Source of the DNA: Methanomicrobiales archaeon HGW-Methanomicrobiales-3
GTDB lineage: Archaea > Halobacteriota > Methanomicrobia > Methanomicrobiales > Methanospirillaceae
Reading direction: 5' to 3'
Length of the DNA: 64,000 nt
Assembly (NCBI GenBank): GCA_002839605.1
Contig: PGYK01000003.1
Span: 160,229-224,228 of the forward strand
Made by a program: the position numbers and the translations under genes
The notes under the pieces: model-generated
Databases searched by the model: none
Told to the model about the DNA's origin: nothing
The model's input: only the letters and a program-made list of their open reading frames with translations
Shown here: positions 20,369 through 34,690 of the stretch, in pieces
Position numbering within the stretch: position 1 is the first letter of the stretch
How the letters are laid out: each line of letters begins with the position of its first letter

Positions 20369-21769
20369 TTATCCTTCCTTCTTCTGCCGTTTCAGCACCG
20401 GGCTTTCAGAAAAGACTTTTTCGAAGGGCTCGATCATGTGCTTTTTCATCTCTTTCTGTGCACTCTCCCGCACGGAAGGGATCGAGAGGAGAAGCGAGAG
20501 GAACGTGGTGCTGAGGCGCTGCCGGAGATCGCTCTGCGGGAAATCATAGAGCCCGTGTTTTGTGTAATACGCATGATCGGCCCGGAAGAACGCCCGCATC
20601 TCCGCCCAGATGTCATCGCGGAATATCTTGTGGCCGGCGACTGCGGGAAAGCCGCCCGGTGCCACGTACCCGCTCTTTGACAGGCGGAGGCAGCGGGCTG
20701 CAAGGGAATCGATCAGTTCGTCAACTGCCATCGCGATCCCGTCCTCGTCCGAGACCACCCCGGCCAGGTTTGCGCCCTGCAGGGAGGGGTAGGCCCGCAG
20801 GATCTCCTGCAGGGTTGCACACTGCGCAACCGGCCCTTCGATGAGGAAGCCCACCTGTTTTCCTGCAAATGCCGGTATGTGGCCCATGAAGAAACTCCGG
20901 TCAAAGACCTGCTTGAACTCCGCGGAGAGGTACCGGTCCTTCACGGTGCCGGCAAAGATGATGATGTCGGCAGGGAGCACGGTCTCTTTCCAGAATTCGG
21001 AGAAGCCATCAGTGTACACGCAGGTGTTGTCAAAGGCGCACCGGCAGCAGCCGAGGCACCCGCCGTTCATCTTCGCGTCGTCAATGGGGACGAGCGAGGC
21101 AGCCTTCCCAAACGAGGAGGCGAGGCGCATGGTCATCTTCTCCAGGTTCGAGCCCGGCGCTGCATCAGTGAGGATCAGGACCTGTTTGTCCCCGCAGTCG
21201 AGCGGCATCGGGATGCCCGCGGACTTGTAGTCGGGGCGGGTGCTGGTGATGGGAAGATAGGTGCGCCGGATGGCCGGGTGCTGCTGTGCGGTGGTGAGGA
21301 AGTCCTGCCCGAACCGGACGAGTTCTTCCTGGTGCATCTCTATAAGCAGGTCGTCCATCTTTGCCATGAAGGAGCCGGTCCAGCGCATGCCGAGGTCTTC
21401 GGCGACTGCGTGGAGGTACTCGTTTGCGGTGTGGTCGAAGAAGTGGATGGAGGTGGTGATCGAGGCCGCGTATTTCCCAAAAAAGGCGGAGCCGGCGTTA
21501 TGGGAGAAGAGCAGTTCGATGAACCGCTTGAACTGGGCGGGGACGAGCAGGAAGTAGACCGGCGTTGCGAAGAGGATGGCGTCCGCGGATTCGATTGCCG
21601 CGATGACTTTCTTGAACTCCTCCTCCTTTGCCTCGATTGCCGCGATCCGCTGGCCGATGTTCTCTGTCGTGAATGTGTGGCCGGGATTTGCGCGTTCGAG
21701 GAACCGGACGTACTGCATCGTCACGCTCTCGTTTCCCTTCGGGCTCCCGTTCAGGACGCAGATCTTCAT
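20369..21769 (-). CDS. two-domain NAD(P)H-dependent FMN reductase-like protein
   Basis: A 466-residue flavodoxin-fold protein made of two related halves. Domain 1 (about 1-190) begins MKICVLNGSPKGNESVT, the phosphate-binding loop of the NADPH-dependent FMN reductase family, with FATPVYFLLVPAQFKRF later. Domain 2 (about 205-400) begins VLILTDAAPGSNLEKM, contains a Cys cluster (GGCLGCCRCAFDNTC) as in iron-sulfur flavoproteins, and then FAGTVKDRYLSAEFK. A helical tail follows. It may carry flavin and possibly an Fe-S centre; the physiological role is unknown. A truncated copy of its 5' end lies at 22932-23276. Confidence 0.82.
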   Translation of the reverse strand: MKICVLNGSPKGNESVTMQYVRFLERANPGHTFTTENIGQRIAAIEAKEEEFKKVIAAIESADAILFATPVYFLLVPAQFKRFIELLFSHNAGSAFFGKYAASITTSIHFFDHTANEYLHAVAEDLGMRWTGSFMAKMDDLLIEMHQEELVRFGQDFLTTAQQHPAIRRTYLPITSTRPDYKSAGIPMPLDCGDKQVLILTDAAPGSNLEKMTMRLASSFGKAASLVPIDDAKMNGGCLGCCRCAFDNTCVYTDGFSEFWKETVLPADIIIFAGTVKDRYLSAEFKQVFDRSFFMGHIPAFAGKQVGFLIEGPVAQCATLQEILRAYPSLQGANLAGVVSDEDGIAMAVDELIDSLAARCLRLSKSGYVAPGGFPAVAGHKIFRDDIWAEMRAFFRADHAYYTKHGLYDFPQSDLRQRLSTTFLSLLLSIPSVRESAQKEMKKHMIEPFEKVFSESPVLKRQKKEG

Positions 21770-21911
21770 GGTGGGGTCTCCTGCTTTCCGGTTGGGAGGG
21801 GAGGGGGTTAAAGGTGACGGGGGGACAGATTTACCGTATCATCTTCAACCGGAGCTGCTGACAAAAAAAACAGCCCGTGCGTTTGGAGGGCCCGGAATAT
21901 TCCATGAAGTT

Positions 21912-22322
21912 TTACAAGAGAGCTTCAATCTTCCGGATCAGGACTTCCGCATGACTGACCGCGGATTCTGCCTCGGTTTTTGAGATGGAACCGGCCATGT
22001 CATACACCGAGCTGTGGCGCTTGCGCCGCATCCGGTCAAAGATGATCGCATCCTTTGAATCCAAAAAGAGTTCAGCGAATTTCACCACCGATATATGCTG
22101 GTTCGCACCATCGGGGCGGTATCCTTTCGAGAACATCAGTGCCCGGCCGGCCTGGAGAACCGCGTTGTACGCGATCGTGTACGCCCAATCCGTGTCCGTG
22201 GGAAGGATGGCCCGGCAGGTCACGAGGTCCCGGCGGGCAAGAGCAACGGCGTCCTTTACCTTCTTCCGGTCATACGGGAGCTTCCTGATAAGCCCTTCCC
22301 GCTCAAGATCCTCAATCATCAC
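21912..22322 (-). CDS. HEPN-domain protein (putative toxin)
   Basis: A 136-residue HEPN protein. The all-helical fold carries an Arg/His motif in RMRRKRHSSVYD (R97-H103, Tyr107), the region that in MNT-HEPN modules forms the RNase site and can be modified by the partner nucleotidyltransferase. WAYTIAYNAVLQAGRALM is a typical HEPN helix. It overlaps the upstream MNT gene by 11 bp, so the two are coupled. Toxin activity is inferred from the family and context. Confidence 0.82.
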   Translation of the reverse strand: MMIEDLEREGLIRKLPYDRKKVKDAVALARRDLVTCRAILPTDTDWAYTIAYNAVLQAGRALMFSKGYRPDGANQHISVVKFAELFLDSKDAIIFDRMRRKRHSSVYDMAGSISKTEAESAVSHAEVLIRKIEALL

Positions 22323-22875
22323 AGGTTCCGCTGATTTGGATCTTCTCTTCCTGCATTACATTCTTTACGAAAGGATCCTTGTTCTTCCTGCGTGTTCTGA
22401 GTTCCGCTGCTGTCATGAGGGTATAGTTGATCTCCCGGCCGGTTGCCTGCTCGCAGGCATGGATGGCCGGGATAAGCCGGTCCTCATCCACGTCCCCCAC
22501 GATGAAGAGGTCGATATCGCTTTTCGCGCCGGCGGTTCCCTTTGCAAACGATCCGTAGATGAACATGCAGGTGATCTCTTCACCGGCAAGAGATTCTTTG
22601 AGAATTTTGGGGATTCCTTCGGTCTTCAGCACGATCTTCTGGAGATCGGTATAGAGGAAATGACCGGTATTGACTGAATAGTACTGCTGGTTTCCCTTCT
22701 TCTGGCCCGCAATGAGGCCGAATGATTCGAGGTTGGCGAGCTCCCGGCGCACTGCGTTGATGTTCTCGCTTGTCGTGCGGACGATCTCGCGGATATAGAA
22801 CTCGCTCCCCGGGTTGAGCAGGAAGAGCGTGAGGAGCTTGACCCGGGTCTTTGAAGAGATCAGCGCTTCCAGCAT
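22312..22875 (-). CDS. winged-helix nucleotidyltransferase (MNT, putative antitoxin)
   Basis: A 187-residue protein. The N-terminal winged helix (about 1-70: REIVRTTSENINAVRREL, then AGQKKGNQQYY wing) is fused to a minimal nucleotidyltransferase domain (about 95-180) with the GSFAKGT motif and DID metal ligands (AKSDIDLFIVG). In MNT-HEPN pairs the MNT protein neutralises the HEPN RNase, in known cases by adenylylating it. The fused winged helix suggests autoregulation, and two 19-bp palindromic sites overlap the start codon. The start is ATG 22875. Confidence 0.85.
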   Translation of the reverse strand: MLEALISSKTRVKLLTLFLLNPGSEFYIREIVRTTSENINAVRRELANLESFGLIAGQKKGNQQYYSVNTGHFLYTDLQKIVLKTEGIPKILKESLAGEEITCMFIYGSFAKGTAGAKSDIDLFIVGDVDEDRLIPAIHACEQATGREINYTLMTAAELRTRRKNKDPFVKNVMQEEKIQISGTCDD

Positions 22876-22914
22876 GAATACATAATGTATTCAATTGAGT
22901 AAAAAATGTATTCA
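22875..22914. promoter_or_regulatory. double palindromic operator of the MNT-HEPN operon
   Basis: The first site is a perfect 19-bp palindrome, TGAATACATAATGTATTCA (22875-22893), overlapping the MNT start codon. The second, TGAGTAAAAAATGTATTCA (22896-22914), keeps the right half exactly. The sites repeat every 21 bp, two helical turns, as expected for cooperative repressor binding. Binding by the winged helix of the MNT protein is inferred. Confidence 0.6.
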
Positions 22915-22931
22915 TTGTCCGGCAGCCATCG

Positions 22932-23276
22932 GCGTATTTCCGGGGAACACTGCGCCGGCATTGTAGGAGAAGAGCAGCTCGATGAACCGCCTGAACCGGG
23001 CGGGGACGAGCAGGAAGCAGGCCGGCGTTGCGAAGAGGATGGCATCCGCGGATTCGATTGCAGCGATGATTTTTTTTAAACTCCTCCTCGTGTGCCTCGA
23101 TTGCCGCGATGCGCTGGCCGATGTTTTCTGTCGTGAATGTGTGGCCGGGGTTTGCGAGTTCGAGGAACCGGACATACTGTATCGTCACGCTCTCGTTTCC
23201 CTTGGGGCTGCCGGAGAGGACGCAGAGGTTCATGGGGGGGACTCCTGCTTTCCGGTTGGGAGGGGTGGGGGGAAAT
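22932..23276 (-). pseudogene. truncated, frameshifted copy of the FMN reductase 5' end
   Basis: A direct duplicate of about 345 bp of the gene at 20369-21769, including about 45 bp of its upstream sequence. Translation from ATG 23233 matches the first 54 residues of the parent (MNLCVLSGSPKGNESVT). It is then broken by an extra base in an eight-T run (23070-23077), and continues in another frame (IIAAIESADAILFATPACF) to about residue 90 of the parent, where similarity stops. Close similarity indicates a recent duplication. It and the intact gene flank the MNT-HEPN module. Confidence 0.85.
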
Positions 23277-23283
23277 AAGGGAT

Positions 23284-23850
23284 TTATTCGAATAGTTGTT
23301 CCATATCGGCAATCCAACTCGGATTTACTTCAATAAATTGAGATAAACATTTCATCTGCCTTTTTTTACCACGTTTATTATCAATTTTTTTCCCAGTGGA
23401 GTCATTTATTTGAATTTCTAAACTTTGTGGAATAATAAAAAAGAATTGTTTCTGACGAATTTCATAACAATTTTCAGAAATTTGTTTGACTTCCTTTTTG
23501 AGTTCCTTTTTTATCGCATCTTTCACGGTCCTTAATGTTTTTGTGTCTTGATCAAAAATTGCTATGAGAAAGTATTCTGAGTCTCCCCCTTTTAACAACT
23601 CGATAAAAATTTCCAGGCAAATATCTTTGTTTTTCTCATTTTTGATTAATGCAAACTTTTTGGTCGTCCGTTTTAATGAAAATTTTCGATAATTATCTCT
23701 GATAATTGTACTTTCTCCACCACGAATTTTCTCGTTTAATATCTGCTCTTGACTACAATTTTTTCCTGTAATTGAGTTTTTCTCAACAACTAATCGCATT
23801 AAATTTTGATCATGATCTCCTTCACACAAAAAAACAAAAAATTTAGGCAA
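23284..23850 (-). CDS. TOPRIM-like protein paired with an AAA ATPase
   Basis: A 188-residue protein with the two acidic signatures of a TOPRIM fold: FLCEGDHD (Glu10, Gly11, Asp12) after the first hydrophobic strand, and IAIFDQD (Asp100, Asp102) after a later strand. It starts at a TTG immediately after the ATPase stop, with GAGGAG just upstream, so the pair is tightly coupled. The combination equals a split OLD nuclease and recalls AriA-AriB (PARIS) and AbiL pairs, but the TOPRIM partner is shorter than AriB as I recall it. AT-rich like its neighbours. A nuclease role in phage defence is inferred. Confidence 0.65.
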   Translation of the reverse strand: MPKFFVFLCEGDHDQNLMRLVVEKNSITGKNCSQEQILNEKIRGGESTIIRDNYRKFSLKRTTKKFALIKNEKNKDICLEIFIELLKGGDSEYFLIAIFDQDTKTLRTVKDAIKKELKKEVKQISENCYEIRQKQFFFIIPQSLEIQINDSTGKKIDNKRGKKRQMKCLSQFIEVNPSWIADMEQLFE

Positions 23851-24981
23851 TTATACTCCTCGCAAATCTAAAGCAAAATTATCACTGATTTTTAGTGCTT
23901 GTTCTAAAGAATAATCATATCGAGAAATTTTTCCATCATCTAGAACGAATTTCGATATTAAAAATTTTTCACCCATTTTATTGTTTTTACCACATAGCAA
24001 AACCTCTTTGATGAGATCGAAACTATGAGTTGTCATAAAAACCTGAACTTTATACTCATTCGAGAGTTTAAAAAGAATATCTCCGAGGATTGTGATATAT
24101 CCTGGATGAAGGTGGTTTTCAATTTCCTCTATCAATAGAATGCCGTTTTTTGCTTCAATCAATTTTGTAATTATTGTTAATAACGATTTAAATCCGTCTC
24201 CGTAATAAGCATAAGGTAAATATTTAATTTTTTTCTCCCCTTCATTAAGTAGAACACCATCTTCGGTAAGTCTTTCAAAGTTTTTAATAATATTATTTTC
24301 TTTTATTATTCCTTCAACCTTTAGGATATTATCACTATTTTCATGGAATGAAAAATCCAATTTGTTTTCATGATAAATTGAAACCACCTTAATTTTTTTG
24401 GGGTTCTTCTGCGTGGATGAAGACAAATTGAATTCGATCGATGAAAATTCAAATAACAAATGAATAAGCCCACGTCGATCAACGTCTGGGAAATACTTTT
24501 TTAGGGATTCCAAATTTTGTATTCGGTTTTTTTTGTAATTTTTTGAATACGGGAATACTTCGACATGCTTGTGATTCTTAATTAGCGTTAAAAACCGGAA
24601 ATTATTGAAAATGGAATTACATAGGTCGTCAGTTTTGTTATCATCTAGCTCTTTAGAGAAAATTTTTTTTATCTTTTTATTTACTTCTTGGATTATTTCA
24701 TTTTTTACTTTGGAATCAATATCAACGATATCTCTGTAAATTGTAATGTCGTGATCGCCAGATGAAATGCGAGCAATTTTGGAATTAATATTTATTTCAT
24801 ATTCTGGGGATTCAAATGAATCGGGTGAAATATCCCGCGAAAAAAGGCAATTAATCGCACTTAACAAAGTAGTCTTTCCAGTGTTGTTTTTTCCAATTAA
24901 AAGATTGATTTGTTTCGGGTGATACTCCATTTTTTGAATACCTTTGAAATGAAAAATATTTATCTCCTTTAGCTTAGGCAT
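23851..24981 (-). CDS. OLD/RecF-like AAA ATPase of a two-gene defence-type pair
   Basis: A 376-residue ABC-type ATPase of the AAA_15/AAA_21 group. It begins with the ABC-ATPase opening KEINIFHFKGI. Walker A is LLIGKNNTGKTT (residues 28-39), Walker B is GILLIEEIENHLHPG, and the switch His follows in MTTHSFDLIKEV. It lacks a C-terminal TOPRIM domain, which instead is the next gene. Codon use is strongly AT-rich, unlike the surrounding genes, indicating horizontal acquisition. By analogy with PARIS or AbiL it would sense phage and control the TOPRIM partner (inference). Confidence 0.82.
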   Translation of the reverse strand: MPKLKEINIFHFKGIQKMEYHPKQINLLIGKNNTGKTTLLSAINCLFSRDISPDSFESPEYEININSKIARISSGDHDITIYRDIVDIDSKVKNEIIQEVNKKIKKIFSKELDDNKTDDLCNSIFNNFRFLTLIKNHKHVEVFPYSKNYKKNRIQNLESLKKYFPDVDRRGLIHLLFEFSSIEFNLSSSTQKNPKKIKVVSIYHENKLDFSFHENSDNILKVEGIIKENNIIKNFERLTEDGVLLNEGEKKIKYLPYAYYGDGFKSLLTIITKLIEAKNGILLIEEIENHLHPGYITILGDILFKLSNEYKVQVFMTTHSFDLIKEVLLCGKNNKMGEKFLISKFVLDDGKISRYDYSLEQALKISDNFALDLRGV

Positions 24982-25196
24982 AACAATTACCGATTTTCTT
25001 TTATCTCTAATTAAGTATTACTAATAATCTGCATCTCCGCAGCAATATCCCCGTATCTTTGAGATATTCTCTCCTTCACATTCCAACGGATATTGACATT
25101 GCTCTATCCTAGTACTTTTTTACTTTCAGACTACTTGCCGATCACTTAAATACAGCATAACGGCTCTATTTTGTATCTAATTTCTTAAAGGATCAA

Positions 25197-26363
25197 ATGA
25201 AAATGAAAATTCTTGAACTGATAAAAAATGAGAAAACAGAAATTGCAAAAAGTCTCTTGTTCTCGGCTTTCGTAGTCCTCATTTTTATTTTTGGAGTTGG
25301 AACTGCATTTATTGTCATCAATCAACAAAACAGTGAAGATTTGAACGATTTTTTTTACCTAAATTACCAAAATTTTGTTCAAAAAGAAGGTGCATTGAAT
25401 ATCGAACAAACGGTTCAAGAGGTTGATCATATTGCGTTACCTGAAGAAAAACTGAACACGATTGCAAATCTTATCGTAACAAACTTCACTGATCCTTTTT
25501 GGCCCGAATCAAGTGAAAATTTGTTTAATAACAAATGTTTTGGCAGTCCAATTCCGTTCAATCACCGGTTTTTCGGAAATAATTGTAATGGTTACGGCTT
25601 CGATAAGAATGGAGCAATCAGAATTCGAACCGGAAATCTCACAAATAATCCCTATTGGATCGCTTATTACAAAACCGGGGCTTGCGGTGAATTAGCGACA
25701 CTATTTGCAAACGTTACGAATCAATCCGGTTTCATAACCAGAGTAGTTTACTCTAGCGATCCTGATCATGCATGGACAGAAGTTTTCCTCAATGATAAGT
25801 GGCAATATTTCGATCCTGATATGTATCACAATTTACAAGGAAATATCACATATCAAAAGTATTGGTTTGACAATACTAGTTCATTTGAGAAAAAAATCGG
25901 ATGGAAATTTAGTAAAATTTCCGTCAGTGGATCTACCTCCACTGGCTATGAGGAAGATAGGACCTATGCATATACAAAAACTGGTAAAGTGAAAATAACT
26001 ATTATCAAACCTGTTGATCGAATTGTTGTCAGGGAGAGAGATCACGCGTCATATGTTTGGACGTTTGTGCCATCGTGTAGTAACTATCCCTGTGTTATCG
26101 AATCAAACCTTGGAAGCGGTAAAACGTATGTCCTTCAGAAGTATATTCCCACACTCCAAATTTTTATTGAGAACTCACGATTTTCAGTAAAAGAAAATGA
26201 AATTGTGAATATCAGCGTGGATACACCAATTAGATTTGATAGTTCTTCCAGCAGATTATCTGAATTATCATCAATGCCTTTACCCTTTTTTTTAGGAAAT
26301 CGCATCCCTTTGAAAATAATTGATTACCGGATGTTGATGTTCGCCCACCAGCATTCGTTCTAA
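25197..26363 (+). CDS. membrane-anchored transglutaminase-like protein
   Basis: 388 residues. A short cytoplasmic N-terminus and one membrane helix (about 20-41) precede an outside domain of the transglutaminase/cysteine-protease superfamily. The triad is clear: Cys163 in GACGELATLF, His191 in DHAWTEVF and Asp206 in YFDPDMY, close to the PNGase-like pattern. The C-terminal 150 residues are beta-rich. AAGGATC precedes the ATG and a TTAAATAC box lies near 25145. AT-rich, in the same island as the ATPase pair. It may be a surface protease or crosslinking enzyme. Confidence 0.78.
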   Translation: MKMKILELIKNEKTEIAKSLLFSAFVVLIFIFGVGTAFIVINQQNSEDLNDFFYLNYQNFVQKEGALNIEQTVQEVDHIALPEEKLNTIANLIVTNFTDPFWPESSENLFNNKCFGSPIPFNHRFFGNNCNGYGFDKNGAIRIRTGNLTNNPYWIAYYKTGACGELATLFANVTNQSGFITRVVYSSDPDHAWTEVFLNDKWQYFDPDMYHNLQGNITYQKYWFDNTSSFEKKIGWKFSKISVSGSTSTGYEEDRTYAYTKTGKVKITIIKPVDRIVVRERDHASYVWTFVPSCSNYPCVIESNLGSGKTYVLQKYIPTLQIFIENSRFSVKENEIVNISVDTPIRFDSSSSRLSELSSMPLPFFLGNRIPLKIIDYRMLMFAHQHSF

Positions 26364-26457
26364 TATGAGCCCCATCGGTAGATCCACCTGCATAAAATGT
26401 AATGCTATCGTAAAGCAACAATCTACTAATAAGAATCCAATTGATATTATTCATCTA

Positions 26458-27624
26458 ATGGCCACAAGGATTCAACGAACTAAAAAAGAAATGGGACAAA
26501 AACCTCGTAATCAAAAATTCACATTTAAGAAACCAGTATCTGAAGGGATTCCTTGGAAAAAATTTTCTGAGATCGAGATTCAAGCAATTCTCAAACATCA
26601 TTTTGAGATACTTGGTTTTGATGTAATTTGGCGACATAAGCATGATTCTGCCAACGAGAAAGGTATCGATTTAGAATGTATTCGAAAAGCAGATAAGAAA
26701 AAAATTATTATTGCGGTAAAAATCAAACCGTTGAAAAATGATATTGCCCAAGTGTTAGAATTAACAAATTCGAGAGCAGATCAAAAAATCTATGTCCATA
26801 TTAATGGGACCGCTCAAAGTTTCCGTGATCTTTCAGAGCAATACGGATCTGATATTGAATTCTGGGATCCAAATAAACTGGAAGAAAAATTGGAAGAATC
26901 GAATCTCACTCTTATTTTGAAAATAAATAATTCATGTACTTCAAACGCGATTCATGACATTACAAAAATTCTGGAAAAAACAATCAATACGATACCTAAG
27001 CAAGAGTTCCCTCAACCGACCGCAGAAGTAATGGAAACCTTGTGGGGGATGAAAAATCGAGCGGTAAGTGTTAATAAATGCGCTCGAATGACGCAAATCA
27101 TGTTTGAACATCCAGAAAATTTTGGTAACCTGAATAATAATCAAGTTCTGGATCTTGTCCTTTGGTGCCATGACCATATTTCTTCGGCATTAGATTCATT
27201 GCTGGACGGTTTCAAATCCCAATCATCAGATATGAAGGCCATCATCTATCATACCCATAAAGTAACTAGCGTTAGATCTAATTGGCGAAATTTAAAATTC
27301 TTTGATTTGGGTCTGATACCAGGAAATGTTGAATCGATGATCGGAGAAACATCAGTCACATTAACAGATAATGACATTGATCTTCATGATGAAATTCCAA
27401 AAGAAAAAATAGATGATAATACATCAACACAAATTTTCAAAAATGCTGCTGGTGAATTCTGTGCTATCGCAATCTGGGCTGATGCGTTGGAAGACACTGT
27501 TGATTTCATTCATGAAGGGTGTATGAATAGAATATTCCTTCCTAGTCCTCAAAAAGTAAAAACCGACAAGATGAAAGAAATTCAACGACGAGCTCGTGAA
27601 AAGAAATTCACACTCCCCATTTAA
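26458..27624 (+). CDS. hypothetical protein with PD-(D/E)xK nuclease-like N-terminal domain
   Basis: 388 residues from ATG 26458; an in-frame ATG at 26365, directly after the transglutaminase stop, would add 31 residues. The N-terminal part (about 40-150) looks like an Mrr-type restriction fold: ILKHHFEILGFDVIWR, then GIDLEC and KKIIIAVKIK. The usual Glu/Gln before Lys is replaced by Val, so activity is doubtful. The C-terminal half (about 190-385) is helical and unrecognised. AT-rich, part of the island at 23.3-27.7 kb. Function could be defence-related, but this is inference from fold and place. Confidence 0.55.
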   Translation: MATRIQRTKKEMGQKPRNQKFTFKKPVSEGIPWKKFSEIEIQAILKHHFEILGFDVIWRHKHDSANEKGIDLECIRKADKKKIIIAVKIKPLKNDIAQVLELTNSRADQKIYVHINGTAQSFRDLSEQYGSDIEFWDPNKLEEKLEESNLTLILKINNSCTSNAIHDITKILEKTINTIPKQEFPQPTAEVMETLWGMKNRAVSVNKCARMTQIMFEHPENFGNLNNNQVLDLVLWCHDHISSALDSLLDGFKSQSSDMKAIIYHTHKVTSVRSNWRNLKFFDLGLIPGNVESMIGETSVTLTDNDIDLHDEIPKEKIDDNTSTQIFKNAAGEFCAIAIWADALEDTVDFIHEGCMNRIFLPSPQKVKTDKMKEIQRRAREKKFTLPI

Positions 27625-27729
27625 CTGCCCTTCATCCATTTTAATTCCAACAAATTCTTTCCATCAAGATCAGCATGAAATCGGCGCATTCAAAATAAAT
27701 TCATAACCAGACCCCGCCCGGAAAAAAGC

Positions 27730-28112
27730 CAATCGCAATCGCGACCCTGATCGAAAAACAATTCCGTATCAATCAAACCTTGATCTGAAAATTTTCATCA
27801 AACCCTGCTTGAAAAATTCCGGGCAGACCTTGATTGAAATTTTTTCAGCAGACTCTGGTTGAAAAACCGGCACCAAGAACCACGCACCGACGGAGATGCG
27901 CTCTCTAGCCTGTTGCACAGAGGGTTAACATTTCCCAACCACACCTTAATTGAAATTTTTTCAGCAGACCCTGCTTAAAATTTTTTCATCAAACCTTGTT
28001 TGGAAATTTTTCACCGCGATCATGATCTCGATTGAAAAACAAATCCGGATCAATCGAACCCTGATAAAAAAAATTTACCGGACCATAATTGAAAAAAAAA
28101 TCAGCCGCCCCC
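27730..28112 (+). repeat. 383-bp long direct repeat, copy 1
   Basis: Matches 31241-31622 along its length in the same orientation, with many substitutions. It is composed of degenerate tandem units of about 25 bp (consensus near CAGACCTTGATTGAAAATTT), plus a central unique stretch (CCGGCACCAAGAACC...GGTTAAC) conserved in both copies. The ends carry related CGCGA...GAAAAACAA...GGATCAA blocks. No long ORF and no transposase. The two copies bracket a segment of about 3.1 kb. Confidence 0.8.
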
Positions 28113-28767
28113 ACTCCTTAACCCCACGCCGTAACTACCCCACCCCCAAACCCCCATTTTCCCGTCCCGGCCCACCCCCAATCCGGCCACGCTACGGGCT
28201 CCGTTGTACGGGTTTTCCGGAACGGAGCCCCATACGGGCCCGGACCCGGATCCGCCAACCCCTTGTTTGATCGAAAACTCCTGGAGGATCTCACGAAACA
28301 GGGGGTCCGGATGAGCGGCTACGACGGGGGACCCTCCGGAATGCAGCAATTCTCCGACGGGGGAATGGGGCGCTCCGTCGGAGGCGGGGCCGGAAAAGGG
28401 GGGTTCCTTTCGATCCGGCCCAGTATACCACGATCCGGCCTGAGATCGGCCCTCCAATTGCATCCAATAAGACATTTTTTGTTCTCCGACGTTGGAAAAA
28501 CCAATCGGAGCCCGTATCGGGCAGAAAAATCTCGTTATTGTACCGTTTTTTTCCGAATCAGGTACTTTTTTCGTACCGGGGGGTGTCCAGGGCGGGGGTC
28601 TCCGACGGAGATGGGGAGGGGGAAAAGGGTATCTTTCCCGGGGGATCCCGGCACGAGGGTACTGTTGGGTACCATCGGAGAAAAACGAAAGGAGGTAACG
28701 GGGTGCTTTTCCTGATGACTTTACAGCGTTATCATCCAAATAAAAAGAGTGAAGGGTGGCCCGGAAT
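28113..28767. other. gene-free hairpin-rich stretch
   Basis: No credible gene was found in about 650 bp. It holds strong inverted repeats: GGGCTCCGTT (28196-28205) with AACGGAGCCC (28221-28230), and CTCCGACGG (28352-28360) with CCGTCGGAG (28375-28383). Several more CTCCGACG or TCGGAG motifs lie at about 28487, 28510, 28594 and 28675, along with C-runs and G-runs on opposite halves. Long ORFs here run through the repeat and lack start signals. It may encode a structured RNA or be decayed sequence. Confidence 0.4.
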
Positions 28768-29586
28768 TTACTCCGGATATTCAACACCCGGATTTTTCCG
28801 GGAAATGATCAGAAGAGTCCCGAGTATTGCACCAAGGCAGATGACGGTCGTAAATCCGGGAGCGGGTTTTGTTTTTGGTTCCAGTATGAAATCAACGGTA
28901 TTGACATTTTGTTTAAAGGTCATTTCCCTTGTAACATTTACATACCCATTTTTTTCCACACTGATTTTCTGGTTGAATCCATGTGCGTCGTTGATACGAT
29001 ACGAACCATCAGCTTCAGATTGTACGATAACCGTTTTTGTATCATAGACCCTGAAAAATTCCGTTCGGATTGTCGCCCCATCTATGGGATGGCCGTCCGG
29101 TGTTGTTATCTTCCCGGATATGGTAATTCTGGGGGGTAGATCTGGCATCCCGGTTTCAACTCTGATATTCCGTGTCCGGAAAACCTGATCCCCGGCAATA
29201 TCAGTAACGGTGACAACGATTCTGTCTAAGCCCTTTGCTACAACAACGTCACAACTGAATGAGGATTGATTGCCACAGTTGGTTGATCCCTCACTGGAAC
29301 TGACGATAATAGACTGTAATGGTACCGGGCTTTTCACCGTACCGGTCACCCAGATGCGGTGAGGAACGACATCCAATAAAAAGAACTCATTTTCCTGAGG
29401 AGTGGTGATGTCAATAATTAGTGTTGAATCACCGGCAGGAACTGCCGGAGTCACGACCCCTGATTGAGCGTTGATTCCGGGAGTTATCATCATTAGGACG
29501 ATAAGGACGGGCAGGGTGTATTTAATGGCCCGGGAAAAAAAATTGAAATCAGGGGGAGCTGTCAAATGGATCAAGCGTTCCGTCAT
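28768..29586 (-). CDS. secreted protein with carboxypeptidase-regulatory-like domain and PGF-CTERM-like tail
   Basis: About 272 residues from ATG 29586 (29592 and 29607 are alternatives; GGGGAG lies 3-9 nt before the first two). A signal helix (YTLPVLIVLMMITPGINA) is followed by a beta domain with two Cys, then a carboxypeptidase-regulatory-like domain (ISGKITTPDGHPIDGATI...ADGSYRI). The C-terminus is PAPGF followed by a hydrophobic helix and a basic tail, resembling the PGF-CTERM sorting signal recognised by archaeosortase. The start overlaps the end of the metalloprotease gene, so the two are an operon. Likely a surface accessory of the upstream protease. Confidence 0.75.
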   Translation of the reverse strand: MTERLIHLTAPPDFNFFSRAIKYTLPVLIVLMMITPGINAQSGVVTPAVPAGDSTLIIDITTPQENEFFLLDVVPHRIWVTGTVKSPVPLQSIIVSSSEGSTNCGNQSSFSCDVVVAKGLDRIVVTVTDIAGDQVFRTRNIRVETGMPDLPPRITISGKITTPDGHPIDGATIRTEFFRVYDTKTVIVQSEADGSYRINDAHGFNQKISVEKNGYVNVTREMTFKQNVNTVDFILEPKTKPAPGFTTVICLGAILGTLLIISRKNPGVEYPE

Positions 29587-30871
29587 TATCATGATCTCCC
29601 CATCCAATGAACCGTTTCGTTGACAGGCTTATCACGGTTTCGCCCAGATCCCGCATCACGCTGGTTGTTGATCCGGAACCACAGGATACGTGGTTGGTGT
29701 TAGTGTAGAACTGCTGCATTGGATCAACTGCAAGAATACTAACTCCGTTGCACGTACTTGATCCCGCATATTCGTCAAGTGCCCCATAAAGGTGCAGTGC
29801 CTCATGTTCATAGTGGAATTGTGTTGCGAAATGAACTGCGCTGTCTGATCCGAGCCACCAGTATCCTATTGCTGCTTTATCTGCATATCCCTGATCGGGA
29901 CCTACTGCATATGAACGGGTTACATCATGCGTGACGAACATCAGTATTACCGAATCTGCATCCGCATAGATCTTTATTGCCCGGGCCATATCATCGGTAT
30001 ATCTGCCGTCGCTGTTACTGTCTGCGTAGCCAAGGTTTTGCGCAGCCCGTTCCATCCATCCTGAAGGACCCCATGCATTGCTGTTATCCCCGGTATTTTG
30101 TCCGCTCACGGTAACAGAATACATTCCTACGGAACTTTCAACACCGGCTCTTGAATCGGCCTGGTTTTTAATATGATTTGTCCCCATCCAGGCATCGTAC
30201 CAAGCGTCATCTTTATGTGAGTCTCTCCAGACCCCCTCTTCACCAGGAATTTGGAAATCGGTAAAGACAAGTGCAGTGTACAGGTATCCTGTCGCGGAAG
30301 GTGCTGACTGAGTACTTGGACTTGCAGTAAGAACCATGGAAGATTTCTGCAATGTGGAGATTGCAGATTGGGAGGAGACCTGGTAATTTAGGTAATCCAG
30401 GCGCGTTTGCTCTTTTTGTGCTTTAACAAAAACTGCAGCCTGTTCACTCGTTATTCCAAGACCCCGTTGTAAGTCCCGGCTGAATTCTTCAGGATTGTTT
30501 ATCTCGTAATATTTTTCTGATTCGTCCCAATATTTTTTCAGGTCTCCGGCTTCCATTTTTTTGACACTGTCTTCTATCTGCTGCTGGGATAGTCCCCATT
30601 TCAATTTATTATTCCAGAAGGTCAGAAATGTGACGGGATCTGTAAGAATAAATGCTTCCTCAGAGAGTTGTGGAGGTCGTGCTTTTAATTCACTGATATC
30701 AACAGATTCAGGGGCGGGAACCGTAACTCCAACAATGTTTGCCTCATTACTATTTTCTTCCGCGCTCACTATCGGTACAATCGCCATCGCTGCCAGCAAG
30801 AGGGCCAGCAGGACGATGCTGATTTTGGGTAGTTGCATTCTTCTTTCACTTCCTTTGATGTTTTTTTGCAT
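29549..30871 (-). CDS. secreted metzincin-like zinc metalloprotease
   Basis: 440 residues (ATG 30838 would give 429). The signal peptide IVLLALLLAAMAIVPIVSA is followed by a helical pro-region (about 40-190) and a catalytic domain. The zinc motif is HEALHLYGALDEY at 356-368: HExxHxxGxxD, the metzincin form with Asp as third ligand. A Cys pair (SSTCNG, NHVSCGSG) may form a disulfide. The C-terminus GDHDNDGTLDPFDS looks like a calcium-binding loop. GGAG precedes ATG 30871 and GGAAG precedes 30838. It leads a two-gene operon. Substrate unknown. Confidence 0.75.
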   Translation of the reverse strand: MQKNIKGSERRMQLPKISIVLLALLLAAMAIVPIVSAEENSNEANIVGVTVPAPESVDISELKARPPQLSEEAFILTDPVTFLTFWNNKLKWGLSQQQIEDSVKKMEAGDLKKYWDESEKYYEINNPEEFSRDLQRGLGITSEQAAVFVKAQKEQTRLDYLNYQVSSQSAISTLQKSSMVLTASPSTQSAPSATGYLYTALVFTDFQIPGEEGVWRDSHKDDAWYDAWMGTNHIKNQADSRAGVESSVGMYSVTVSGQNTGDNSNAWGPSGWMERAAQNLGYADSNSDGRYTDDMARAIKIYADADSVILMFVTHDVTRSYAVGPDQGYADKAAIGYWWLGSDSAVHFATQFHYEHEALHLYGALDEYAGSSTCNGVSILAVDPMQQFYTNTNHVSCGSGSTTSVMRDLGETVISLSTKRFIGWGDHDNDGTLDPFDSSP

Positions 30872-31240
30872 ACGCTCCGCTCGAAATGCACGCAGAAAAC
30901 CTTCAAGAAGTACTGAAGATAATACTCACATGCCTACGGGCGGGCCGGGTTCATTTAGTCTGCTAACTTGGGTGGACCCGTCCTTTCACTTTTCCGGGAC
31001 AACCTGAAGCTGTCCACAATGATCGGTATAATTTAGTTGTATATATTATTTGTCGGTCAAAAATTTACACGTTTGAAAAAGCGAAAGGTACTCGGTGACA
31101 AAACGTTAATATGATGTAATAAAAAGTCCCCGAGAGGAATTTTCCGGCGTGAACGAAACTGCGCGGAGATCCGGAGTTTTTTCAACGATCCACCGTGTTC
31201 CTGGCAATCGTCATAAGTGGACTCCACGCCCCGAAAATTT

Positions 31241-31622
31241 CAATCGCGATCGCGACCCTGATCGAAAAACAATTCCGGATCAACCGGACCTTGATTTTAA
31301 AATTTTCATCAAACCCTGATTGAAAAATTTTAAGCAGACCTTGATTGAAAATTTTCAAGCAGACTCTGCCAGAAAAACCGGCACCAAGAACCTCGCACCG
31401 ATGGAGAAGCACTCGCAAGCCTGTTACACACCAGGTTAACTTTTCCCAACCACACCCTGATTGAAAATTTTTCAGCAGACTCTGCTCAAAATTTTTTCAT
31501 CAAACCTTGCCTGGAAATTTTTCACCGCGATCATGATCGCGATAGAAAAACAAACCCGGATCAATCAAATCCTGATTAAAAATTTTACCGGATCCTGGCT
31601 AAGAAAAATTCAGCCGCCCCCC
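31241..31622 (+). repeat. 383-bp long direct repeat, copy 2
   Basis: Second copy of the repeat at 27730-28112, same orientation and same order of tandem 25-bp units and central GGCACCAAGAACC...GGTTAAC block. Divergence between copies is scattered, so the duplication is not recent. The preceding 370 bp (30872-31240) is gene-free upstream sequence of the metalloprotease gene with AT-rich promoter-like tracts. The repeat ends about 40 bp before the broken MNT gene. Confidence 0.8.
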
Positions 31623-31659
31623 AGCCTCCCTGATATCGTCAAGAAAATGGAGATGGGAT

Positions 31660-31945
31660 CTACGCATAGACGACCTCACCAAGAATGTAGGGTTTCAGCC
31701 GCTTCTTGATCGACCCCTTCATGACAAGGTCGACCTTCTGCCCGAAGAGATCTTCTAAGTAAAATTTACAGCTCATGTAGTTGTCGAACGTTTTCTCGCC
31801 ATTCCGGAACGTGACCAGCACATCCACATCGCTGTCCGGCCGCTCCTCTTTCGCGAACGAATGAGCCGAAGATGCCGATCTTCGAGACACCGAACCGTTT
31901 CTTTATCTCCGGTTCGTGGTTCCGCAGGAGTGCAAGAGCATCCAT
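31660..31945 (-). pseudogene. frameshifted minimal nucleotidyltransferase (MNT)
   Basis: Translation from ATG 31945 gives MDALALLRNHEPEIKKRFGV, then KIGIFGSFVRE. One extra base in the run GCGAAAGAGG (near 31850) then shifts the frame, and the rest (EERPDSDVDVLVTF...KVDLVMKG...GEVVYA) continues in the other frame to a TAG stop. With the base removed the product would be a typical MNT antitoxin of about 95 residues with intact GSF and DVD motifs. No HEPN partner follows. A remnant toxin-antitoxin locus, or a sequencing error in the A run. Confidence 0.75.
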
Positions 31946-32012
31946 GATTCTCTGTGTCTATGGTTAACCGGGATGAATATTAATGCATTGACCTGACCGG
32001 ATCGATTGTTCA

Positions 32013-33638
32013 TTACGCTGAACTGGCAACAAGATATCCGCCATCTGATGTTGGTTTTACAGAATAAATCCTTGATAATCCTTCCCCGTTTTCGAAAAAC
32101 TCAATCATGAATACAATTCCCTGTCCGGACGGGCCCTCCACGCGTATCCGGGTCCTGTTCCCGGCATGCGGCTCGGTACTGAATGAAATATCAGGCACGA
32201 ACTGATGGCTGAATGAATCCGGCTTCATGGGAAGCAGCACCTCATTAATCACATTCCCCTGTGGATCGAGAAGAATTTTTTTCTCCCCTTCTCCCCGCAG
32301 GTTTACCTCAGTTGTCATGTTGCCGGATGGTAATATCGAATAGACAATCCCGTCATTCGTCTCCACAAAAGTTCTGTTCCAGAGATAATTGCCCTGGGAA
32401 TCAAGGGCTATGATGTAACTGCCGGCCTTTTCCGGATCCTGGTCAGCCACTGAACAACTGACAAGAATGTCTCCATTGGGTGACGGATATGCCCTCCTGC
32501 AGTTCACAAAATCCTTCTCACTCTTCTCCTACAGGATATTCCCCTGCCGGTCCGCAGCCAGCATCCACCCTTCAAAAGAATACCAACCGGGTTCTGAAGG
32601 ATTTCCTTTATGGACCTCCCCTGTCATCAGGTACCCCCCGCCTGGCAGCGATATACTGGACTGGACAACTGCATTTGGATACCGGTGATGCCACAATTCA
32701 TTCCCCGCTGCATCCAGCCGGATAACAAATCCATCAGCCATGATAACCGTATACTCCTCCGCTGTCGGCAGCACGTCCTGGAGAGCGCCAAGGTTTGTCT
32801 CCCGATAAGCAAAAGTACCCCGCTGGAAATTCCAATCGGGATCGCCCGCTGTACTGAGTTTCATTACGTTCAGATCTGCATCTGTCAGGGCGGACGGCCG
32901 GAACATGCCCCCGATAATGAAACCCCCGTCAACAGACCGGCTCACGATAAGCGGGGAATCGCTGTACCCGCGAACCCGGGTCTGCCACTCCGTTGTCCCG
33001 ATTGTATCAATTTTTGTAAGAAGAGAATCCACGGAATCACCTGCTGGAGAAAACCCTGCATTTATGGGGGAAACCAGGAGGCTGAGGACAACCGGCCCCA
33101 CAAGGAAAGCGACAATGACACCCGCCAGCGCGAACATCAGGGTATCTCCATTCCGATAACGGTATGGAGTGGGTAATGCTGCAGTCGGCAAATACGGGTC
33201 TGTACCCCGGGCATGCGGGTTGAAACCGCCGTCCCGTTTCCGGATCCGACCTGCAAGAAAACTACCTGCCAGGATAAGTGCAGGGACGAGTACCGACACT
33301 ACCGGAATAATCCCGGCAAAATCCTTTCCGGCAGTATTCTTCTGGATGGTCACTGAAGAATCAAGAAAGATGATTCCGAAGACCGCCAGGGCTGCCATGG
33401 TTATGATCGTGATCTTGTCCGGGTATTTCACGAGGAGAAACGCGAGGATCGTTGGGATGAGGAATTTTATGAACAGAAGTATACCTGCGGAGAAACCCTC
33501 CAGCCGGGTACCAAAAAACCAGGTTTCCCAGTTGATAACAAATAAAAAAATGAAGGAGACCGATGAAAACAGGAAAAGGCCAAGGAGGCTATAGTGAAAG
33601 ATTGTATCAATCGTGTCTGTTTCCGGTTTTATCATCAT
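32013..33638 (-). pseudogene. membrane-anchored beta-propeller-like protein interrupted by an in-frame amber codon
   Basis: One reading frame of 541 codons. The N-terminal half has five to six hydrophobic segments (residues 1-215). The C-terminal half has PQQ/WD-like repeats with endings such as DAAGNELWHHRYPN and DSQGNYLWNRTF. Codon 370 (32529-32531) is TAG, exactly where the repeat pattern expects Trp (QGNIL-stop-EKSEK), so a single TGG to TAG change explains it. Both halves keep coding character. TAG is an ordinary stop elsewhere here (hisB, PHP gene), so pyrrolysine is unlikely. Either a recent pseudogene, a split gene or a sequencing error. Confidence 0.7.
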
Positions 33639-33810
33639 CTCAGGTCCGCTCCTTTATACACAATGATTGATCAGAAATAATAAAAGTATGATTTGGCCAT
33701 ATTTGAATTCCGATCCTGCAGCCCCTTAGGACGATTGCCGGTACCGAAGACCGCAGTTTTTGCATTTTTTCACTGGCTCTTCTGCCCGGCCCGTGCCGGA
33801 AATAACAGGA

Positions 33811-34323
33811 TTATCCCTTTCGTCTCATCATGCGAAAAAGGATCGCCAGGAGTCCGAGTGCAATGACGGTACATACCACAACAAAGACCGGGTCACTGCG
33901 GATTCCGGCCAAAAGCCCCCGGGCCCGGAAATCAATCACGGAAGGATATACCGGGTCCATAGAGTCTGACCAGGTCTCATTGGCACCGATGATCCAGATC
34001 GTGGTTATCTGCGTCGGATCATCACGCCCCGCGGATTTCCTGATCGAGAAGACCAGTTGTTTCCCGCAGGAATTGGCCGGTGGGAGGTGGACGGATTTGA
34101 AGTCCGCATTTATCTGTCCCTCGTGCCAGTTCCCGACTCCACATTCCTGAATAAATTCCATGATGATGGTATTGCCTTTCACGGTCGGGTGCAAATTCGT
34201 GAGAACTTCGACTGGTGCGCCCCCCATGCCGGGATAGATCGTAGGGGGCTCTGCTGCATACACCGTCCCGGGAACCATCGCGGTCACGAGGACGATGAGG
34301 AAAACAAGTGCAATCGATTTCAT
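33811..34323 (-). CDS. small secreted, C-terminally anchored protein
   Basis: 170 residues from ATG 34323 (the longer ORF start at 34371 adds residues before the signal peptide). The signal peptide ALVFLIVLVTAMVPGTVYA is followed by a beta-rich domain with two Cys, and a C-terminal membrane helix (VFVVVCTVIALGLLAILF) ending in RMMRRKG. It starts 10 bp after the stop of the transglutaminase-like fragment, so the two may be co-transcribed. I do not recognise a family. Confidence 0.68.
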   Translation of the reverse strand: MKSIALVFLIVLVTAMVPGTVYAAEPPTIYPGMGGAPVEVLTNLHPTVKGNTIIMEFIQECGVGNWHEGQINADFKSVHLPPANSCGKQLVFSIRKSAGRDDPTQITTIWIIGANETWSDSMDPVYPSVIDFRARGLLAGIRSDPVFVVVCTVIALGLLAILFRMMRRKG

Positions 34324-34333
34324 AAAAAAAAGG

Positions 34334-34690
34334 TTAGTTGTATCCTGGCAGTTCTCCAAACGGCTCAGCAATCATATCTTCATACCTCAACAGTCCATCC
34401 CCGGCGGGATCCGCAGTATACCGGTTGTCATCTGCATCGGTGTACTTAATCAGGTTCATATGAGTATTGTTTCCCATTTTATAAACCTGCGCGTTATTGA
34501 AGACATTCCAGGTGGGGTCGGAATGGATCCATGCACCTGCTATACGGTTTTCAAGGATAGCATGCCCATACGAATAGCCGGTTTCATTTCTCCAGGTGAT
34601 GCCGAGGAACCGTGACGGGCATCCATCCATGCAACCATGACGTACCGCGAGCATCCCGAATACCGGAAATTTCCCCGCAATGAAAATCAC
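34334..34690 (-). pseudogene. truncated transglutaminase-like fragment
   Basis: At most 118 residues, from a GTG without ribosome site. It contains the His and Asp parts of a transglutaminase-like site (YSYGHAILEN and WIHSDPTWN) but no GxCxE-type Cys nucleophile region or signal peptide. The N-terminal half of the usual domain therefore seems missing, cut at about 34690 where a divergent lipoprotein gene begins. It could instead be a short functional variant starting at the internal ATG, but loss of the nucleophile argues for a remnant. Confidence 0.45.

Follow-up and report, generated by a model that had tools for sequence, protein, structure and literature searches.

The locus analysed here belongs to contig PGYK01000003.1 of Methanomicrobiales archaeon HGW-Methanomicrobiales-3 and lies in a 64,000-nucleotide stretch, referred to throughout as the window, in which all positions are counted unless another locus is named. 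Two touching genes occupy the reverse strand: gene A (23851-24981) encodes a 376-residue AAA_15/AAA_21 (OLD/RecF-type ABC) ATPase, presumed to act as sensor or scaffold, and gene B (23284-23850) encodes a short TOPRIM protein of 188 residues (P0002), the presumed nuclease effector. The TTG start codon of gene B begins at the base right after the TAA of gene A (a gap of 0), and an AGGAG stretch is found five bases upstream of this TTG, within the last codons of gene A.

Gene A matched Pfam AAA_15 with 85.1 bits (9.6e-24; cut-off 32.1) and AAA_21 with 85.4 bits (9.8e-24; cut-off 27). Across 14 aligned ATPases, the invariant positions include G30, N32, N33, G35, and K36 of Walker A (GKNNTGKT, residues 30-37; 24871-24894), E285 and E286 of Walker B (LLIEE, residues 282-286; 24124-24138), and H319 of the H-loop or switch (TTHS, residues 317-320; 24022-24033), all encoded on the reverse strand. 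The same is true of a C-terminal tail, D372-L373-R374-G375 (23857-23868, reverse strand), which ends one residue before the stop codon, is kept in the haloarchaeal-type ATPases as well, and is encoded by codons that overlap the Shine-Dalgarno-like AGGAG of gene B. An AlphaFold2 model of the gene A product (pLDDT 83) was matched by Foldseek to GajA, retron Eco8 OLD, PtuA-like retron ATPases, and Rad50.

In gene B, TOPRIM motif 1 (EGDHD, residues 10-14; 23809-23823) stands at the end of strand 4-9 and motif 2 (DQD, residues 100-102; 23545-23553) at the end of strand 94-100, both on the reverse strand, and E10, G11, D14, D100, and D102 are the sole invariant positions among 15 sequences of the family. 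A third element, SLE (residues 143-145; 23416-23424, reverse strand), may belong to a second metal site: S-L-E is found near residue 143 in most, not all, Methanomicrobiales relatives and appears to resemble S-x-E, the reported metal-B ligands of Retron-Eco2 (PMC12405507). The AlphaFold2 model of the gene B product (pLDDT 87.7, pTM 0.85) has an alpha/beta fold, with EG..D and DxD predicted at C-terminal strand ends as expected for TOPRIM. Foldseek searches with this model returned no solved TOPRIM among the 50 matches listed per library (PDB and BFVD), those listed being generic alpha/beta folds with low TM-scores, and profile searches of PDB sequences were empty or insignificant, so that the assignment of gene B to the TOPRIM fold rests on motifs and profiles.

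P0002 itself matched no Pfam or PADLOC model, TOPRIM and defence models included. Among 13 relatives, PDC-M38B was matched weakly by 11 (best 1.1e-5; range 1e-5 to 1e-2) and DUF3226 (PF11536) by eight, the best with 22.0 bits (E 1.6e-4), below the Pfam cut-off of 27 bits; membership in DUF3226 was therefore rejected, and hhalign of the gene B family against the DUF3226 set gave a marginal probability of 19%. Relatives also matched the retron RT-Toprim_I-C model (6e-5, profile positions 348-534, i.e., its Toprim part), and three matched OLD-like_TOPRIM weakly, while neither DUF4435 (PF14491) nor RloB was matched at E<=1 by P0002 or 13 family members. The initial annotation had read the locus as an OLD/RecF-like ATPase with intact Walker motifs, followed without a gap by a 188-residue protein that starts at TTG and carries EGDxD and DxD signatures, and each element of that reading stands; of the profiles it named, those for the ATPase were matched above their cut-offs, and DUF4435, RloB, and DUF3226, named for the partner, were not.

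A paired family in the Halobacteriota

Matches to gene B were found in 17 of 232 genomes of Methanomicrobiales (18 by profile), with the complete pair in approximately 16. Where the gene B relative is intact, it is almost always preceded immediately by an ATPase gene on its own strand; in the exception (L027), the TOPRIM gene stands at the end of the contig. Profile searches added four more distant pairs from other Halobacteriota families (L085-L088) with the same gene order, and profile comparison of these with the window family gave full-length alignments for both the TOPRIM protein (E 6e-16) and the ATPase (E 6e-44), the latter running to the last residue. The split OLD-like arrangement first proposed for the window is thus a recurrent gene order in Methanomicrobiales and beyond. 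No TOPRIM relative of gene B was found in plasmids, phages, or IMG/VR, and no haloarchaeal-type ATPase in plasmids. PDLC04619 gave no match in 295 genomes either, in a search in which no control gave a signal, so that this result does not speak for absence.

Both genes share one frame in the window, with a single TAA between them, as a single-gene OLD broken by an in-frame stop codon would. This reading was rejected, because the junctions among relatives (-4, -1, 0, 2, or 18 nt) differ in frame, and the window pair is taken to be a natural two-gene unit rather than a broken fusion. Distances among the ATPases correlate with those among the TOPRIM proteins (r = 0.94; Mantel p = 1e-4), also within the order alone (r = 0.91), a pattern that co-inheritance of the two genes as a unit would produce. 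OLD classes 1-3 and Gabija, in which ATPase and TOPRIM form one polypeptide (joined in class 2 by a GajB helicase gene), were likewise set aside, since the genes are separate in every intact relative.

Divergent from the pair, on the forward strand (25197-27624), are genes for a transglutaminase-core protein, whose N-terminus apparently holds a membrane segment, and for a 419-residue protein with a weak match to Mrr_cat (restriction endonuclease), possibly a two-gene module. They were considered as further subunits and rejected, as inspection found no counterparts beside the relatives.

Relation to known ATPase and TOPRIM systems

In PADLOC, both partners, gene B through its relatives, find their best models in a single defence candidate, PDC-M38, which joins a PDC-M38A ATPase to a PDC-M38B TOPRIM protein and includes AAA-ATPase + DUF3226 pairs. 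PDC-M38A (PDLC04608) matched gene A at 3e-34 over residues 3-374, i.e., its whole length, and matched the ATPases of all 13 family members, while AriA and AbiLi (both 2e-25) ranked behind it. Two touching genes, an AAA_15/21 ATPase and then a TOPRIM protein, are common to PDC-M38 and the window pair. The differences are the missing PDC-M38B match of P0002 and the low significance of the matches of its relatives, the size of the TOPRIM protein (187-221 residues in the window family vs 213-283 in the PDC-M38 examples examined), and the N-terminus of gene A, which has no extension, unlike the ATPase of one full PDC-M38 pair on an IMG/VR contig (L103, 4798-7889). The latter ATPase has an N-terminal extension of 400 residues (with a weak ParB_N match, below cut-off), ends in DIRG, and overlaps its EGxHD TOPRIM gene by 4 nt; this pair adjoins a gene that matches a phage portal. 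The three bacterial plasmid matches of gene A examined were likewise called PDC-M38A by PADLOC, and two of them have a DUF3226-annotated neighbour; on the M. jannaschii plasmid (L089, 2323-4085) the ATPase is split into two open reading frames, the second ending in IDLRG, followed by a DUF3226-annotated gene. The very C-terminus of DUF3226-partnered ATPases is mostly E-V-R or D-V-R.

Judged by sequence, the window pair represents a divergent lineage, in archaea, of ATPase and TOPRIM pairs of the PDC-M38 kind; it belongs to a wide ATPase + TOPRIM class, of which the archaeal D-L-R-G lineage, with a TOPRIM protein of approximately 190-220 residues, is a branch missed by current models, and it is distantly related to candidate antiviral systems known in bacteria. 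Within the library of papers covered, a literature search returned no experimental paper and no phage or virus assay on PDC-M38, and no paper that names PDC-M38 or DUF3226.

The pair had also been likened to PARIS and AbiL, and here the ATPase bears out the resemblance but the partner does not. PARIS (AriA-AriB; OLD class 4) has adjacent ABC ATPase and TOPRIM genes too, and its published detection rule combines AAA_15 at at least 32 bits or AAA_21 at at least 27 bits with DUF4435 (PF14491) at at least 27 bits (PMC9122126). Gene A scores above both ATPase thresholds, whereas the gene B family is not DUF4435, on which ground membership in PARIS was rejected, and AriA is not the best match of gene A. 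AbiL (AbiLi-AbiLii) presents a similar picture: the AbiLi match of gene A is exceeded in its relatives (8e-34), but no AbiLii or RloB match appears among all matches of the gene B family at E<=1, and the pair is not assigned to AbiL. HEC-01 follows the same two-gene logic of an ATPase with a small TOPRIM-like protein, though its ATPase and its partner both belong to families other than those of the window pair.

For gene B, a further likeness is to the Toprim part of Retron Eco2 and type I-C RT-Toprim retrons, with which its relatives can be aligned. The Toprim of Retron-Eco2 is an RNase that binds metal through E374, D378, D460, D462, and S513/E515, the spacing from E374 to D460 being 86 (PMC12405507); the corresponding E-to-DxD spacing is also 86 in several gene B relatives and 90 in the window protein. 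The window Toprim differs in being free-standing and paired with an ATPase, with no reverse transcriptase partner seen. These comparisons bear on an alternative that is also antiviral but OLD/GajA-like, in which ATPase and TOPRIM protein would together form a DNA nuclease acting directly on invading or replicating DNA, without release of a toxic RNase. The presence of Gabija GajA and retron Eco8 OLD among the best solved matches of the gene A model and the weak OLD-like_TOPRIM matches of three gene B relatives speak for it, given that OLD and GajA are DNases (PMC10568477). We nevertheless hold it to be a possible but rather unlikely explanation, as the genes are separate, as in PARIS, the gene B relatives align better with the Eco2-type Toprim, a reported RNase (PMC12405507), and no GajB-type helicase gene was noticed adjoining the pairs.

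Genomic setting and distribution

The pair lies in an accessory island of approximately 12.9 kb (21812-34679), bounded in the window by a reductase gene on the left and a DUF333/chagasin gene on the right; in six congeneric genomes (L060-L065) these two genes stand side by side, approximately 95 bp apart in L060. Its AT-rich core (23272-27722) has 33% G+C vs 55% in the remainder of the window, in keeping with the AT-rich island first described, and the pair has lower G+C than its surroundings at 11 of 13 loci. Only the window's own genome, among 39 of the source genus, carries the pair, which is in a recently acquired DNA block. Both gene trees group the pairs of Methanocalculus with those of two other families (supports 0.78-0.997), apart from Methanocorpusculum of their own family (f3), which points to transfer.

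Several further features of the island were observed. In a seventh congener (L059, 9576-16387), the reductase gene is adjoined by another AT-rich cargo, in which AAA-like and kinase-like genes were recognised by eye, so that the window site may be an insertion hotspot. A repeat of approximately 300 nt (27723-28022 and 31234-31533, 87% alike), with 23 full or partial matches scattered over the genome, forms the right border of the AT-rich island; the second copy is adjoined by a reverse-strand open reading frame (31660-31890) for a minimal nucleotidyltransferase of 76 residues, perhaps a truncated MNT antitoxin. The 5' end of a flavodoxin/FMN-reductase gene is duplicated (21491-21807 and 22954-23271, 90% identity), the second copy lying on the far side of the toxin-antitoxin-like module described below, and each copy stops approximately 38 nt short of the start codon and gives way there to foreign DNA, as though insertion had struck the same spot twice.

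A defence role is supported by the context of the pair and of its relatives. Beside the pair, and outside it, is the toxin-antitoxin module already recognised in the initial annotation, here identified as HEPN-MNT-like (21912-22875, reverse strand; genes 21912-22322 and 22312-22875), with matches to Pfam HEPN (1.2e-6) and NTP_transf_2 (2.2e-9) and to PADLOC PDC-M05B (1e-20) and PDC-M05A (3e-52), the PDC-M05 candidate being enriched in archaea (PMC12988326). In Methanocorpusculum petauri (L023), a type I restriction-modification (R-M) system flanks the pair, with HsdR on one side and HsdS and HsdM on the other; a caspase gene and a weak SIR2-type match are found near the pair at L018 and a PDC-S05 gene at L030, while at L022, L024, and L032 the pairs stand alone among apparently core genes. 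The strongest single argument for defence is a site in Methanocalculus, between a 'YALEKVLPP' gene and a corrinoid-protein-like gene, at which four genomes carry the pair. The site is empty in G019, with the flanks 160 bp apart, retains a TOPRIM remnant only in G013, and in G017 holds a HEC-01-type pair in place of the window-type pair (L027, 1520-3306). It thus swaps systems of the ATPase-TOPRIM type, and such exchange is what defence hotspots show.

This setting also bears on two readings without an antiviral role. The pair could be a selfish addiction module that stabilises the island, with the TOPRIM protein as toxin and the ATPase as antitoxin; the AT-rich island, the adjoining HEPN-MNT module, and the occurrence of DUF3226 relatives on plasmids are compatible with this, but single-gene deletions of PARIS are not toxic, which argues against a toxin-antitoxin reading of such a plan (PMC9122126), and the R-M association, together with the replacement of the pair by another defence system at the Methanocalculus site described above, makes the idea very improbable. 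A housekeeping or DNA-maintenance factor, the other reading, has a precedent in Cran1, an archaeal OLD of the Sulfolobales that is a cell-cycle factor rather than a defence protein, the one function known for an archaeal OLD, with a conserved gene whose deletion was not obtained (PMC12796447). Cran1 likewise combines an ABC ATPase with TOPRIM in an archaeon, and the loci among core genes, as well as the fact that four Methanocalculus genomes have kept the pair at a single site, could be understood in this way. Cran1 is, however, a single, conserved, and essential protein, whereas the window system is split, accessory, and patchy: in its own genus, 38 of the 39 genomes lack the pair, as does most of the order, copies are decayed or broken in G013, G105, G084, and G097, empty sites occur, and the gene trees separate two genera of one family. 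A housekeeping role, already disfavoured, is in our view very improbable. Conservation as core genes outside defence contexts, which the initial annotation had said would speak against its proposal, was not what we found; given the patchy distribution and the empty sites, a core-gene reading was rejected.

Proposed mechanism and significance

We consider the pair most likely to be a candidate archaeal antiviral system. Its mode of action is probably, by analogy, that of an accessory system built on the PARIS plan, in which an ATPase sensor would hold a TOPRIM nuclease and free it on infection; in PARIS, AriA holds AriB, a Toprim tRNase, and sets it free in response to a viral trigger (PMC12409363). 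Following this precedent, the gene A product would assemble into an ATP-dependent oligomer with a sensor role, binding the gene B protein and keeping it inactive, plausibly through the invariant D-L-R-G tail. A virus-made trigger would change the ATPase and so free the nuclease, which would bind two metal ions through EGxxD and DxD and cut nucleic acid of the host; RNA, for instance tRNA, is a more likely target than DNA. Growth would then stop before virus release, an abortive outcome. The AriB and Retron-Eco2 precedents, the spacing of 86, and the S-L-E element lead us to regard a released RNase as about twice as probable as a DNase, a choice that rests on distant sequence similarity.

The tail as a lock on gene B is our proposal; alternatively, in the window, its codons may be kept because gene B uses them as a putative ribosome-binding site. 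That ATPases of the DUF3226 branch carry E-V-R tails speaks for a function of the tail in the protein itself. Carried further, archaea might have a lineage of their own of abortive-infection systems made of two genes, to which the pair would belong: the ATPase would hold a free-standing TOPRIM RNase (probably a tRNase) by its universally conserved D-L-R-G at the C-terminus, a docking latch with a variant (E-V-R at the C-terminus) in the DUF3226/PDC-M38 branch. This fuller version we put forward tentatively, as a possible but rather unlikely reading.

Apart from CRISPR and R-M, little of archaeal immunity has been mapped, and in one survey nearly a third of archaeal genomes had no other detected systems (PMC12988326). 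Present models would miss the pair, as its TOPRIM protein matches nothing in Pfam or PADLOC, while its shared anatomy links the PADLOC candidate PDC-M38, PARIS, and retron Toprim effectors. The invariant ATPase tail as a latch that holds the nuclease offers a hypothesis at the level of residues; the fuller version given above, if true, would mean that a PARIS-like system works in archaea and would provide a general rule for how such ATPases hold their nucleases.
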